Part shown: positions 1 through 6,065 of the stretch, piece by piece
Position numbering within the stretch: the stretch's first letter is position 1
Layout of the letters: each line of letters opens with the position of its first letter
The notes under the pieces: generated by a model
Told to the model about the DNA's origin: nothing
Database searches by the model: none
The model's input: the letters and a program-made list of their open reading frames with translations, nothing else
Made by a program: the position numbers and the translations under genes
Source of the DNA: Deltaproteobacteria bacterium
Lineage (GTDB): Bacteria; Myxococcota; B64-G9
Assembly (NCBI GenBank): GCA_030591745.1
Contig: JAUVAM010000106.1
Coordinates: forward strand, 1-8,762
Reading direction: 5' to 3'
Length of the DNA: 8,762 nt

Positions 1-92
1 AAGTGCATGGGAATCGAACCCACCTGACGCGCTTCTCACACGTCACACCGGGTTTGAAGCCCGGGAGGCCCACCAGTGACCTAGGCACTTCC
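1..92 (-). tRNA. selC: tRNA-Sec (anticodon UCA), 3' end cut by the window edge
   Basis: Selenocysteine tRNA, charged with serine, converted to selenocysteyl-tRNA by SelA and delivered by SelB to UGA codons followed by a SECIS hairpin. On the minus strand the gene begins GGAAGTGC at 92. The 8-bp acceptor stem (92-85 with 6-1; the last two pairs and discriminator lie outside the window) is the Sec-specific length. The anticodon stem is 64-60 with 52-48, and its 7-base loop CTTCAAA (59-53) puts anticodon TCA at 57-55. The long variable arm has 7 bp (45-39 with 31-25). The T arm has 5 bp (23-19 with 11-7) and loop TTCGATT. A serine, leucine or tyrosine tRNA is excluded by the UCA anticodon together with the 8-bp acceptor and 5-bp T stem. 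Only the distal 3' end, including any encoded CCA, is unseen. Confidence 0.97.
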
Positions 93-2849: not shown

Positions 2850-4124
2850 CTACTTACTCGCTGGTTTCGGCTGGACCTTGGTCGGGGCAACCGGCTTGAG
2901 GCGCAGGCCCTTGCCCGGGCCGCGGGGCATGGCCTTCGTCGGGATGCGGCCTGGGCGCTTGGAGTCGATCCGAAAACCCGATTTGCCAGGCCCAGGTTTA
3001 CGCATTCCTGGGAGGCCAGGCAACATTCGGTTGGGACCCCGACCTCGGGTCGGGCCCATCGAGCGAATGCGGTAGCTGATTTCGAGGGTCGGCTGCTTCT
3101 TGCTGTCCGTGTGGACGATCAGCTTGCCCATTTTCTTTTCTGGTTGCTTCTTCATGGTGGCCCGCACAACCCAGCCCTTGGCGGTGGAGCTTGCCTTGGC
3201 CTCCACGGCACCCGTCGGATCCTCGACCTTGGTGATTTTGAAGGCCTGTTTACTCAAGGAAGTCACGCTGAAAGTCCTGGGCCGAGTGCCGCTTTTCATG
3301 CCAGGTCGTTTGTTGTTTTTCGAGCCGGCCTCGGTGAACCACAAGGAGGCAGGCATGGCGTTGATGTCCTCACTGACCCGGGCTGAGACCGCCAGGGTTA
3401 GCGAGGGCACCTTCGGGATGTTGGTCTTGGCCGTGATCTTGGCCCGGAAAAACTCGACCTTGTCCCCCGCCTTGTAGCTCACCTTCAGGGCCCTGGCCCC
3501 GTCCTCGGTCTTGATTTCCACGGCTTTGAGCATGTCGGGATGAGTGGAGGAAATCTCGGATAATTTGAGTTCCGCAAGCTTCTTGCCTGTCAGCTTGATG
3601 ATGGCTTCATTGCTGGAGCCCTTGCTCACGGCGCGGAAGTCCAATCGAGATTTGTCGAACCCAACCACCACCTCGACCTGGCCGCTGATGGTCAATTTCA
3701 GGCGTGGGGTCTTGGGATCATTGGACTCGACGTTAATGCTCTTCGACAGTTTGCCTTGACGACCACGGGTGAATACTTTGACTTCAATTTTTCCTTCCCC
3801 GCCCGGGGGAAGTTCGCTCGCCGAAACAACGGCGGCGGTGCAGCCTCAGCCACCTTTGGCGCGTATGATCTTCAGCACGCCTTTGCCGGTGTTTTTCACT
3901 GTGAAGACATGTTTGACTTCTTGGCCCTGTGGCACGGTGCCGAAGTCATGCTTGACTTCGGCGCAGGTGATCACCGGTACCGCCGTGGTGTCGGTGCCTG
4001 GGTCAGCGCTGACGCTGCTTGAGTCTGCCTGACCGACCGGCTGCTCGGGACATCCGATCAGGCCAGCGCCGATGAAGGTCAGCAGGCCCAGCATCAACAG
4101 GCCTGTCATGGGGCTACGTCTCAT
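2850..4124 (-). CDS. DUF1573 lipoprotein, predicted selenoprotein with Sec93-Gly-Cys95 motif (in-frame TGA read through)
   Basis: Predicted 424-residue secreted lipoprotein containing one selenocysteine. The signal peptide ends in lipobox LIGC (Cys25). A DUF1573 immunoglobulin-like domain spans about 50-150: DFGTV at 60-64, FTVKNTG at 74-80, then GGUGCT at 91-96 where relatives have CGCT, then LPPGGEG and SNDP-type strands typical of the family. U93 is the TGA at 3848-3846. Two further beta-rich segments (about 150-250 and 250-355) resemble repeats of the same fold. A basic Gly/Pro/Arg/Lys tail of about 70 residues closes the protein. The only Cys residues are C25 (lipidated), C54 and C95, so U93 can pair only with C95 or C54. 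The ATG at 4124 is chosen over 4250 because GGAGGA lies just before it, the signal peptide starts there, and the predicted promoter lies between the two. Conventional annotation would split it at 3846 or call it a pseudogene. Function unknown; a redox role is inferred from U-x-C. Confidence 0.87.
3815..3837 (-). promoter_or_regulatory. Candidate bacterial SECIS stem-loop downstream of the TGA
   Basis: In the mRNA, eight bases after the UGA, bases 3837-3830 (CGCCGCCG) pair with 3823-3815 (CGGCGAGCG), forming 8 bp with a single bulged A (3818). The 6-base apical loop is UUGUUU (3829-3824). The GU in the loop (3827-3826) lies 18 bases after the UGA, the spacing at which SelB-binding loops occur in known bacterial SECIS elements such as fdhF. 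G is the third rather than first or second loop base, a slight departure from common search rules. The pairing is read by eye, without an energy calculation. Confidence 0.7.
3846..3848 (-). other. In-frame TGA predicted to encode selenocysteine
   Basis: TGA read on the minus strand from 3848. The frame is open from 4250 upstream and from 3845 to the TAG at 2852-2850 downstream, with conserved DUF1573 sequence on both sides. It occupies the first Cys position of the family's CGCT motif (context AKGG-U-GCTAA). A Cys-to-Sec exchange at a conserved redox Cys is the classical signature used to recognise selenoproteins. Confidence 0.86.
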
Positions 4125-4268: not shown

Positions 4269-6065
4269 ATGAACAACGGCCCGAGAGATATGCGCGCACT
4301 AGGTCAGGTACTGGTGGAGCGCGGTTTGTTGACCGAAGATCAGCTAAAAAGCGCGCTGGTCAAGGAGAGTTCCAAGCGCCAGCGCTTGCTGCATGACGCC
4401 AACATCGGGCGTAGCGGCAGGCAGCGGGTTAGCATCTCGGGGGCTGAGCTCCTGGCTTCTTTTGACCTGAAGATACAGGGCGAAAAGAACGCGGTCTTGG
4501 ATGAGGATCGAATCGCCCAGCTTCTGGCCGAAGAGGCGAAGCTCGACTACAAAAAGATCGATCCTTTGCAACTCGACATGAAGCTCATCACCACGGTCAT
4601 GTCCCGGCCTTTTGCCCGGCGGCACTCGGTTTTGGTTCTGGGCAAGGAGGGCTCCAAGCTTAGTGTGGCCGTGGCCGACCCCTTTGATGTGGAACTTTTG
4701 GAGAATCTTCGTCGGGTGACCGGTTTTGATATCCAGCCCGTGGTCTCGGCGAAGAAGGATATCCAGCGCATCATCACAGAACTTTACGGCTTCCGATCTT
4801 CGGTCAAGGCGGCTGCATTGACCATGGAGGCCGGTCATGACATCGGCAACCTGGAGCAGTTGGTTCAGCTCAAGTCCGTGCAGGATTTGGAGGCCAACGA
4901 CAAGCATGTGGTCAACGCCGTGGAGTATATGCTCCATTACGCTTTTGACCAGCGGGCTTCGGATATCCATATTGAGCCCAAACGGGACCAGAGTCTCTTT
5001 CGGGTGCGCATTGATGGCATCATGCACAACGTCACCAGCCTGCCCAAGGTGGTGCATGCGGCCGTGATCTCCCGCATTAAGATGCTGGCCCGCATGGATA
5101 TCTCAGAGAAGCGAAGACCCCAGGCCGGACGCATTAAGACCGGCAAAGGGGAGATGGAAACCGAGCTTCGTGTCTCCTCCATGCCCGTGGCATTCGGCGA
5201 GAAGATCGTCATTCGGATTTTTGATCCCACGGTGCTGATGCAGGACCTGAGCGAGTTGGGTTTTTTCTCCAGGGATTACAACCTTTGGGAGTCCTTCATC
5301 TCGCGCACCAACGGCCTGGTGTTGGTGACCGGGCCCACGGGCAGCGGCAAGACAACCACCTTGTACTCTTCATTGAAATACCGGGCCAGCCCGGAAGTGA
5401 ACATTGTCTCCATCGAAGATCCCATCGAAATGGTGGTCGAAGACTTCAACCAGGTTTCGGTGCAGGCCAACATCGACATCACCTTCGCCTCGGCCTTGCG
5501 CACCATCTTGCGTCAGGACCCGGACATCATCATGGTGGGTGAGGTGCGTGATGCGGAGACGGCCTCCAACGCGGTGCAGGCGGCTTTGACCGGTCACCTT
5601 GTGCTGGCCACCCTGCACACCAATGACTCCGGCTCAGCGATGGGTCGCATGTTGGATTTGGATGTGGAGCCTTTCCTTCTTTCTTCGACCCTGACCGGGG
5701 TGGTGGCCCAGCGTTTGCTTAGGCTGATTTGCCAGCACTGCCGCAAGAAGACTTTCCTGACCGCGGACCAGATCAATGTTTTGGGCATGAAAATGCCTGA
5801 GGAAGGTCAGCGCAAACTGCCGGTTTATTATGGCGAAGGTTGCCCGGCATGTCGAGGCACAGGCTATTTCGGCAGGACGGCCATCTATGAGGTCATGCCG
5901 GTCAACAACAAGATCGCCAAGATGATCAACACCCGGGAAGACACCAAGGAGATCATGAAAACGGCCCGGCTCGACGGCATGATGACTCTGCGGGAGGCGG
6001 CCATCAAGAAATTGGCTCAGGGCTTGACCACCTTCGATGAGATTTTGCGCGTGACGGTGGAGTAG
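4269..6065 (+). CDS. GspE/PulE/PilB-family secretion or type IV pilus assembly ATPase
   Basis: Cytoplasmic hexameric ATPase that powers type II secretion or type IV pilus extension. The 598-residue protein has an MshEN-type N-terminal region (about 8-170; LGQVLVERGLLTEDQL at 11-26) with an inserted segment (about 40-80) that I associate with myxobacterial members. Then comes the ATPase core: Walker A GPTGSGKT at 355-362, Asp box near SIEDPIE, Walker B DPDIIMVGEVRD at 417-428, His box LATLHTND at 446-453. A zinc-binding tetracysteine follows: C488/C491 and C525/C528. All catalytic motifs are intact. MshEN domains often bind cyclic di-GMP. No pilin, PilC, PilT or Gsp genes are in view, so pilus versus secretion cannot be decided. 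The start at 4269 lacks a clear ribosome site; ATG at 4290 (MRALGQVL) is an alternative but also has no well-spaced site. First gene of a likely four-gene operon. Confidence 0.93.
   Translation: MNNGPRDMRALGQVLVERGLLTEDQLKSALVKESSKRQRLLHDANIGRSGRQRVSISGAELLASFDLKIQGEKNAVLDEDRIAQLLAEEAKLDYKKIDPLQLDMKLITTVMSRPFARRHSVLVLGKEGSKLSVAVADPFDVELLENLRRVTGFDIQPVVSAKKDIQRIITELYGFRSSVKAAALTMEAGHDIGNLEQLVQLKSVQDLEANDKHVVNAVEYMLHYAFDQRASDIHIEPKRDQSLFRVRIDGIMHNVTSLPKVVHAAVISRIKMLARMDISEKRRPQAGRIKTGKGEMETELRVSSMPVAFGEKIVIRIFDPTVLMQDLSELGFFSRDYNLWESFISRTNGLVLVTGPTGSGKTTTLYSSLKYRASPEVNIVSIEDPIEMVVEDFNQVSVQANIDITFASALRTILRQDPDIIMVGEVRDAETASNAVQAALTGHLVLATLHTNDSGSAMGRMLDLDVEPFLLSSTLTGVVAQRLLRLICQHCRKKTFLTADQINVLGMKMPEEGQRKLPVYYGEGCPACRGTGYFGRTAIYEVMPVNNKIAKMINTREDTKEIMKTARLDGMMTLREAAIKKLAQGLTTFDEILRVTVE

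Follow-up and report, generated by a model that had tools for sequence, protein, structure and literature searches.

Known DUF1573 selenoproteins and bSECIS elements

DUF1573 domain-containing proteins (pfam07610) with a UGC motif appear in the selenoprotein lists of two reviews (PMC9312934, PMC13188914), the second of which credits the family to Zhang and Gladyshev 2007, and the selenoprotein table of a 2008 ocean survey includes OS_HP2, assigned to pfam07610 with a UxC motif (PMC2398784). For the RNA signal that accompanies the UGA codon, the consensus bSECIS model, which PMC13188914 quotes from Zhang and Gladyshev 2005, expects a G within the first two places of the hairpin loop and a UGA–loop distance of 16–37 nt (PMC13188914, PMC10778597). 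Some bSECIS elements fail this model and may form distinct classes (PMC13188914).

The gene described here lies within a window of 8,762 nt (the whole stretch of DNA that was analysed). With Cys substituted for Sec, its product scores 105.6 bits against the NCBIfam model NF041425, “OS_HP2 family (seleno)protein” (cut-off 100), and the Sec or Cys that opens the (U/C)GC motif of that family is represented by a TGA at residue 93, with Cys95 completing the motif. The initial annotation had suggested that this selenoprotein family may be new. That suggestion was wrong, since the NF041425 cut-off is passed and DUF1573 stands in the published lists cited above; the gene is a further member of an already described selenoprotein family (OS_HP2 NF041425/DUF1573 PF07610), which it resembles in profile score, in the UGC motif and in the placement of Sec at the first Cys. 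It differs in having a conserved second hairpin downstream of the UGA, for which no description was found in the accessible portions of the family literature or of the wider literature, including PMC10778597, PMC13188914 and PMC12013277; this is no proof that the hairpin is unpublished. What may be novel is thus the RNA and not the protein family. Our overall reading, to which we assign a probability of roughly 0.6, is that the gene encodes a predicted exported Sec-DUF1573 (OS_HP2 family) selenoprotein whose UGA is likely read as Sec with the aid of two predicted hairpins.

Gene structure and genomic context

The Sec-DUF1573 gene occupies positions 2850..4124 on the minus strand and encodes 424 residues, with Sec at residue 93. 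Read from 4124 to 2850, the frame contains exactly one internal stop, the TGA at 3846..3848 (minus strand), and terminates in TAG. Residues 53–150 (3675..3968, minus strand) comprise a full DUF1573 Ig-like domain (PF07610, 94.5 bits against a gathering cut-off of 26.1, with the TGA read as Cys as in all profile scoring of the window protein), and residue 93 is the first Cys of its CGCT motif. Translation and domain score together confirm that one frame is split by a single TGA at the first Cys of the DUF1573 motif, as had been noticed from the sequence. Cys95 (3840..3842, minus strand), the second cysteine position of the Sec-Gly-Cys motif, is invariant in a 44-row alignment. A signal peptide is predicted from the sequence at 4050..4124 (minus strand), with a predicted helix at residues 6–20 and a lipobox-like LIGC ending in Cys25; lipoprotein export is predicted solely from this LIGC at residues 22–25.

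A tRNA-Sec gene (selC) lies at 1..92 on the minus strand (RF01852, 66.7 bits). The tRNA-Sec previously reported in the window is therefore real, though truncated: its 3' end is lost at the window edge, for which reason ARAGORN lists no tRNA-Sec on the window. A complete tRNA-Sec is present on the sister contig L005 (9743-9840). Placement of a tRNA-Sec within about 6 kb of a Sec-DUF1573 gene was observed in the window and in seven of 80 related loci (L002, L004, L005, L009, L021, L027 and L039), which come from Myxococcota-like records, CSSED10-310 and one Desulfobacterales-like record; no such pairing was seen among the Cys loci, the loci being of varying length.

Evidence for selenocysteine at residue 93

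A genome scan found 144 relatives, and its 80 best, taken together with the window, gave 83 aligned genes in 81 sequences (80 loci plus the window). At the codon aligned with residue 93, 55 genes carry TGA and 28 carry a Cys codon (TGT in 14, TGC in 14), and none of the 83 carries TAA or TAG; the count leaves out a tandem Cys paralogue in L004 (site 8054), which shows a register shift. The in-frame TGA thus lines up with a Cys codon in some homologues and with a TGA in those of other species. The scan alignment began after the TGA and its patterns favour PPGGE; Sec and Cys genes were therefore also sampled with the family model. Across 33 whole genomes, 71 DUF1573 matches were found, 40 with exactly one TGA and 31 free of stops, and no match contained any other stop. 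On the tree of these genes at least six changes between Sec and Cys are needed, two of which are forced by starred branches.

In 49 genomes drawn from 50 of the 80 loci, SelA was found in 31/31 TGA genomes versus 8/18 Cys genomes (Fisher p 5e-6), SelB in 29/31 versus 8/18 (p 2e-4), and SelD above cut-off in 29/31 versus 8/18. A genome's Sec or Cys label is that of its located gene, further copies having been sought in five of the 18 Cys genomes; one of the eight “Cys” genomes with Sec machinery, G041, also has two DUF1573 matches with one TGA each. The initial annotation had called for selA, selB and selD in the genome: SelA, SelB, SelD and tRNA-Sec are all present in the sister genome G001, and the window itself shows the tRNA-Sec.

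The same TGA is kept in L005 by the sister gene, whose protein was 93% identical to that of the window in the scan match. Over the 244 codons downstream of it (+1 to +244), window and sister differ by a dN of 0.021 and a dS of 0.107, values that indicate purifying selection in place of the relaxed decay expected of a broken gene. Between codons −17 and +50 around the TGA the two genes show zero codon differences, while 67 of 420 codons differ gene-wide. Together, the restriction of the codon to TGA or Cys, the SelA distribution and the signature of purifying selection support the proposed Sec at position 93, and we regard residue 93 as almost certainly selenocysteine.

Two conserved RNA stretches downstream of the UGA

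Sequence comparison among the relatives indicates conservation at the RNA level in two stretches downstream of the TGA, seen as covariation in the one and as frozen codons in the other. The 60 nt following the codon have a folding energy below that of synonymous shuffles in the 55 Sec genes (mean z −1.30, p 6e-9); no such excess is seen over the same 60 nt in the 28 Cys genes (mean z −0.23), nor at +60 and +120 in the Sec genes. By the spacing from Sec to PG(G/E/Q), the Sec genes fall into a T-type (31 genes, 14 codons), an S-type (23 genes, 13 codons) and one other.

In the 31 T-type Sec genes, 87.7% of hairpin 1 cells are paired, and covariation reaches 0.502 versus 0.217 in shuffled alignments, with 0/500 shuffles as high; in these T-type genes pairing falls to 20–49% when the register is slid. 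The corresponding region of 24 Cys genes shows 38.7% pairing and covariation of 0.124. Two of the five measures are matched by shuffles, namely pairs with two-sided changes (by 25/500) and additional pair types (by 76/500). RNAalifold, applied to 28 of the 31 T-type genes, returned hairpin 1 followed three bases later by hairpin 2; it omitted L005, which is identical to the window over the 51 nt aligned, together with L013 and the second gene of L039, both of which lack PPGGE. In the consensus fold, the stem of hairpin 1 comprises 5 bp and its 8-nt loop begins 18 nt past the UGA, with a leading G in 25/28 genes. In the window, hairpin 1 (3815..3837, minus strand) is predicted by folding of the window sequence as CGCCGCCG-UUGUUU-CGGCGAGCG, with its loop 16 nt after the UGA and no G in the first two loop places; the consensus stem covaries, and its pairs at columns 18-33 and 19-32 are disrupted by the window's own letters. 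S-type loci (e.g., L025, L033 and L036) have a different, longer hairpin 1, with codons +4 to +11 largely frozen, and in the 23 S-type genes the strongest constraint falls on hairpin 1, not on hairpin 2.

Hairpin 2 (3795..3811, minus strand) is predicted in the window as UUCCCC-CGGGC-GGGGAA, with its loop 40 nt after the UGA; the exact string is the 17-nt TTCCCCCGGGNGGGGAA. Its six pairs hold in 28/28 T-type genes (RNAalifold), and its synonymous sites are frozen in the relatives. Among the 31 T-type genes, pairs encoding the same residue have a codon identity of 1.00 at +12 (I/L/V), +14 (P), +16 (mostly G) and +17 (E), where 0.36, 0.28, 0.27 and 0.50 would be expected (307, 465, 407 and 435 pairs compared, respectively); identity is 0.82 at +13 and 0.46 at the loop codon +15. 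The loop base G45, the wobble base of a Pro codon and unpaired in the predicted fold, is G in 31/31. Cys genes stay within 0.14 of expectation in codon identity over +12 to +17. At the protein level the sister is 94% identical to the window, and the 42 other aligned proteins only 24–43%.

The exact string TTCCCCCGGGNGGGGAA occurs in 32 of 55 Sec genes versus none of the 28 Cys genes. Restricted to Sec genes with PPGGE, it is found in 32 of 52, where codon usage would lead one to expect 0.18, a figure that is not a formal probability because the genes are related. Two phylum samples, for which the family model was the sole criterion (77 and 99 genomes, including a few already met), added 12 new Sec genes, seven with PPGG and four with the exact hairpin 2, and 23 new Cys genes, ten with PPGG and none with the exact hairpin 2. 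These counts cover fetched loci only, among which L219 and L247 (Cys) and L243 (Sec) are without PPGG, and L248, a Sec gene with the exact hairpin 2 that is possibly the same gene as L020, is left uncounted. Hairpin 2 is not universal among Sec genes: 20/52 of those with PPGGE do not have the exact string, and 5/12 of the independently sampled Sec genes are without PPGG entirely. One Sec gene, L224, carries UACCCC-CGGGU-GGGGUA, a two-sided change that preserves the stem. On these grounds we consider it very probable that hairpin 2 is a real RNA element.

A displaced, two-part SECIS as a possible reading

Judged by hand from the predicted folds, neither hairpin of the window combines the small apical loop, the G and the distance that the bSECIS rules place in one hairpin. 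The likeness to the model lies in a coding-region hairpin just after the UGA, in the fitting distance of hairpin 1, and in the hairpin 2 loop, CGGGC, which has G in second place followed by a further G. The differences are that the window's hairpin 1 loop has no early G, and that its hairpin 2 loop is 40 nt from the UGA, beyond the published 16–37 nt.

Other selenoprotein genes of the same genomes offer a closer comparison. Sec-SelD and Sec-FDH share with the present gene a UGA predicted to be read as Sec and a hairpin in the coding region. Sec-SelD differs in having one main constrained block, at codons +6 to +10 (18 genes, this being the number of sites read in 30 fetched loci), and its excess over expectation at codons +12 to +17 is at most 0.14, slight at +14 and +16. 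Sec-FDH sites, sought by one motif in 30 fetched loci, were found in three genes in two of these genomes, and differ in having a normal SECIS loop at 18–19 nt; SelB there therefore accepts the usual distance.

Since hairpin 1 keeps its shape and hairpin 2 keeps its letters, the simplest account is a spacer joined to an element that SelB would read. Specifically, we tentatively propose that hairpin 1 would fold away about 18 nt and act as a covarying spacer, such that hairpin 2, with the loop G expected by SelB, would be brought to an effective distance within the usual range. The SECIS would thus be displaced and two-part, with an invariant UUCCCC-CGGGN-GGGGAA read by SelB 40 nt out, and it would be this element that fixes PPGGE across phyla. 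We place this proposal, and with it the assignment of hairpin 2 as the part that SelB may read, at somewhat less than an even chance.

An accessory role for hairpin 2 ranks nearly as likely. Hairpin 1 alone could be the SelB-bound SECIS, with hairpin 2 serving in ribosome pausing, fold protection or the balance between read-through and stop, and we give this about one chance in three. The consensus hairpin 1 loop starts 18 nt after the UGA with G first in 25/28, and in two of these genomes one Sec-FDH gene each has a GGUCU loop equally far from its UGA. The S-type genes freeze hairpin 1, which also speaks against a single rule for the family. However, in most rows an Ala or Val codon begins with that leading G, so the protein alone could fix it, and the UUGUUU loop of the window lacks G at its first two positions. 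Moreover, hairpin 1 keeps pairing and little sequence, whereas hairpin 2 keeps its sequence, including the unpaired wobble G.

Protein fold and putative redox centre

The best-ranked solved folds for the predicted protein are Ig-like (HYDIN/ASH, 2qsv and VesC). Ig-like folds also make up most of the Foldseek and VIA matches, whose rmsd exceeds 9 A in the rows spanning several domains; the structure alignment comprised 43 relatives and the window. A sequence search of solved structures gave one match, 2qsv, at E 0.00055. A predicted lipid anchor would carry three predicted Ig-like domains, in the first of which two strands are linked by the Sec93-Gly-Cys95 loop. This loop would form a selenol/thiol redox centre outside the cytoplasm, passing to a selenenylsulfide when oxidised. 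Both the redox role and the Sec93–Cys95 selenenylsulfide are read from the motif, and we consider the redox role an even call. The full chain, in which the spacer model and the redox role are added to Sec with both hairpins, is correspondingly improbable as a whole, at about one chance in five.

Cys54 (3963..3965, minus strand) had been named as an alternative partner for Sec93, which is unlikely in general. Of 55 Sec genes, one was unreadable at this site; on the branch to which the window belongs, 8/8 Sec genes have an equivalent, as against 0/46 of the others, and Cys54 was rejected as a general redox partner on account of this confinement.

Variants of the motif were observed in two loci. 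The Sec paralogue L148 (G041:C320) has Sec-Gly-Ser, with the TGA kept and the second Cys lost, and this Ser in place of Cys95 counts against a redox role. L243 is a Sec form with Sec-Ala-Cys in place of Sec-Gly-Cys.

Possibly, Sec-Gly-Cys serves as a site for a soft metal or for irreversible attack on electrophiles, with no redox cycling, an alternative that concerns the protein step only and that we consider unlikely. C-x-C pairs can bind metals, and the domain search of the window protein returned no Trx-like domain; the top solved folds are Ig-like. Against this, most selenoproteins of known function are oxidoreductases (PMC2398784).

The residue preceding the Sec/Cys site is Gly in 48/55 Sec genes and Ser in 23/28 Cys genes. 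We make no claim of co-evolution between this residue and the Sec/Cys state, as the tree holds only two supported independent pairs and kinship may explain the pattern.

Remaining alternatives

The exact string TTCCCCCGGGNGGGGAA was sought throughout the 33 whole genomes (~144 Mb), in which it has 25 occurrences in 21 genomes, all inside DUF1573 matches with one TGA; a reversed control string has none in the same genomes. This distribution bears on the idea that the frozen PPGGE codons serve a role apart from the UGA, in mRNA stability, as a protein-binding site or as a DNA site. The position of the motif beyond the published 16–37 nt range would fit such a role, but the motif is found in 0/17 Cys genes with PPGG and 25/25 of its genomic occurrences fall in Sec genes, and we regard the idea as very improbable.

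As the initial annotation foresaw, database annotation splits the gene: the entry P0002 (95% identical) starts after the TGA, as do several further database relatives at the same position. These gene calls would suit an ordinary stop, whether in a pseudogene, through a sequencing error or between two separate genes, but a TGA at the same codon in 55 genes across several phyla with no other stop type, purifying selection downstream and Sec machinery in the tested TGA genomes leave this reading with a negligible probability.

Distribution and gene neighbourhood

The nearest kin of the window are MAGs titled Deltaproteobacteria, Myxococcales or Myxococcota. TGA genes also occur in Thermodesulfobacteriota, CSSED10-310, Zixiibacteriota and Gemmatimonadota records, and in two records titled Proteobacteria that are placed in Pseudomonadota. 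Among cultured hosts, Desulfacinum hydrothermale DSM 13146 (L069) and Desulfoferrobacter suflitae (L054) each carry an S-type TGA gene. No relative of the Sec-DUF1573 gene was found in the viral contigs scanned, and no near match to it in the plasmids searched.

No common neighbour gene stood out across the loci, and the clusters are mostly shared within a lineage. In several loci from two phyla (window, 4269-6065; L002-L005, L073, L079, L080, L012 and L034), type IV pilus or type II secretion genes adjoin the Sec gene. They encode either a TfpB/GspE-like ATPase, which in the window scores under the TfpB cut-off, or a protein judged by eye to be GspF-like. Tandem pairs of Sec-DUF1573 genes were observed in CSSED10-310 (L021, 4614 and 5838; L039, 5995 and 7244). 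Among Planctomycetota of the Brocadia type, the protein encoded next after the Cys form begins with a signal-like stretch and has a conserved PCGC motif (L038, L043, L044, L048, L049, L052, L055, L062, L065, L066 and L076).

Implications for the family

Gene callers cut Sec-DUF1573 genes in two, as exemplified by P0002. The string TTCCCCCGGGNGGGGAA, confined to Sec genes in the 33 genomes, is a sharp 17-nt mark by which such genes can be found. With hairpin 2, the distance from the UGA that is permitted to a SelB-bound hairpin becomes open to testing, and should hairpin 1 be a folded spacer, such genes would escape bSECIS searches based on chain distance.
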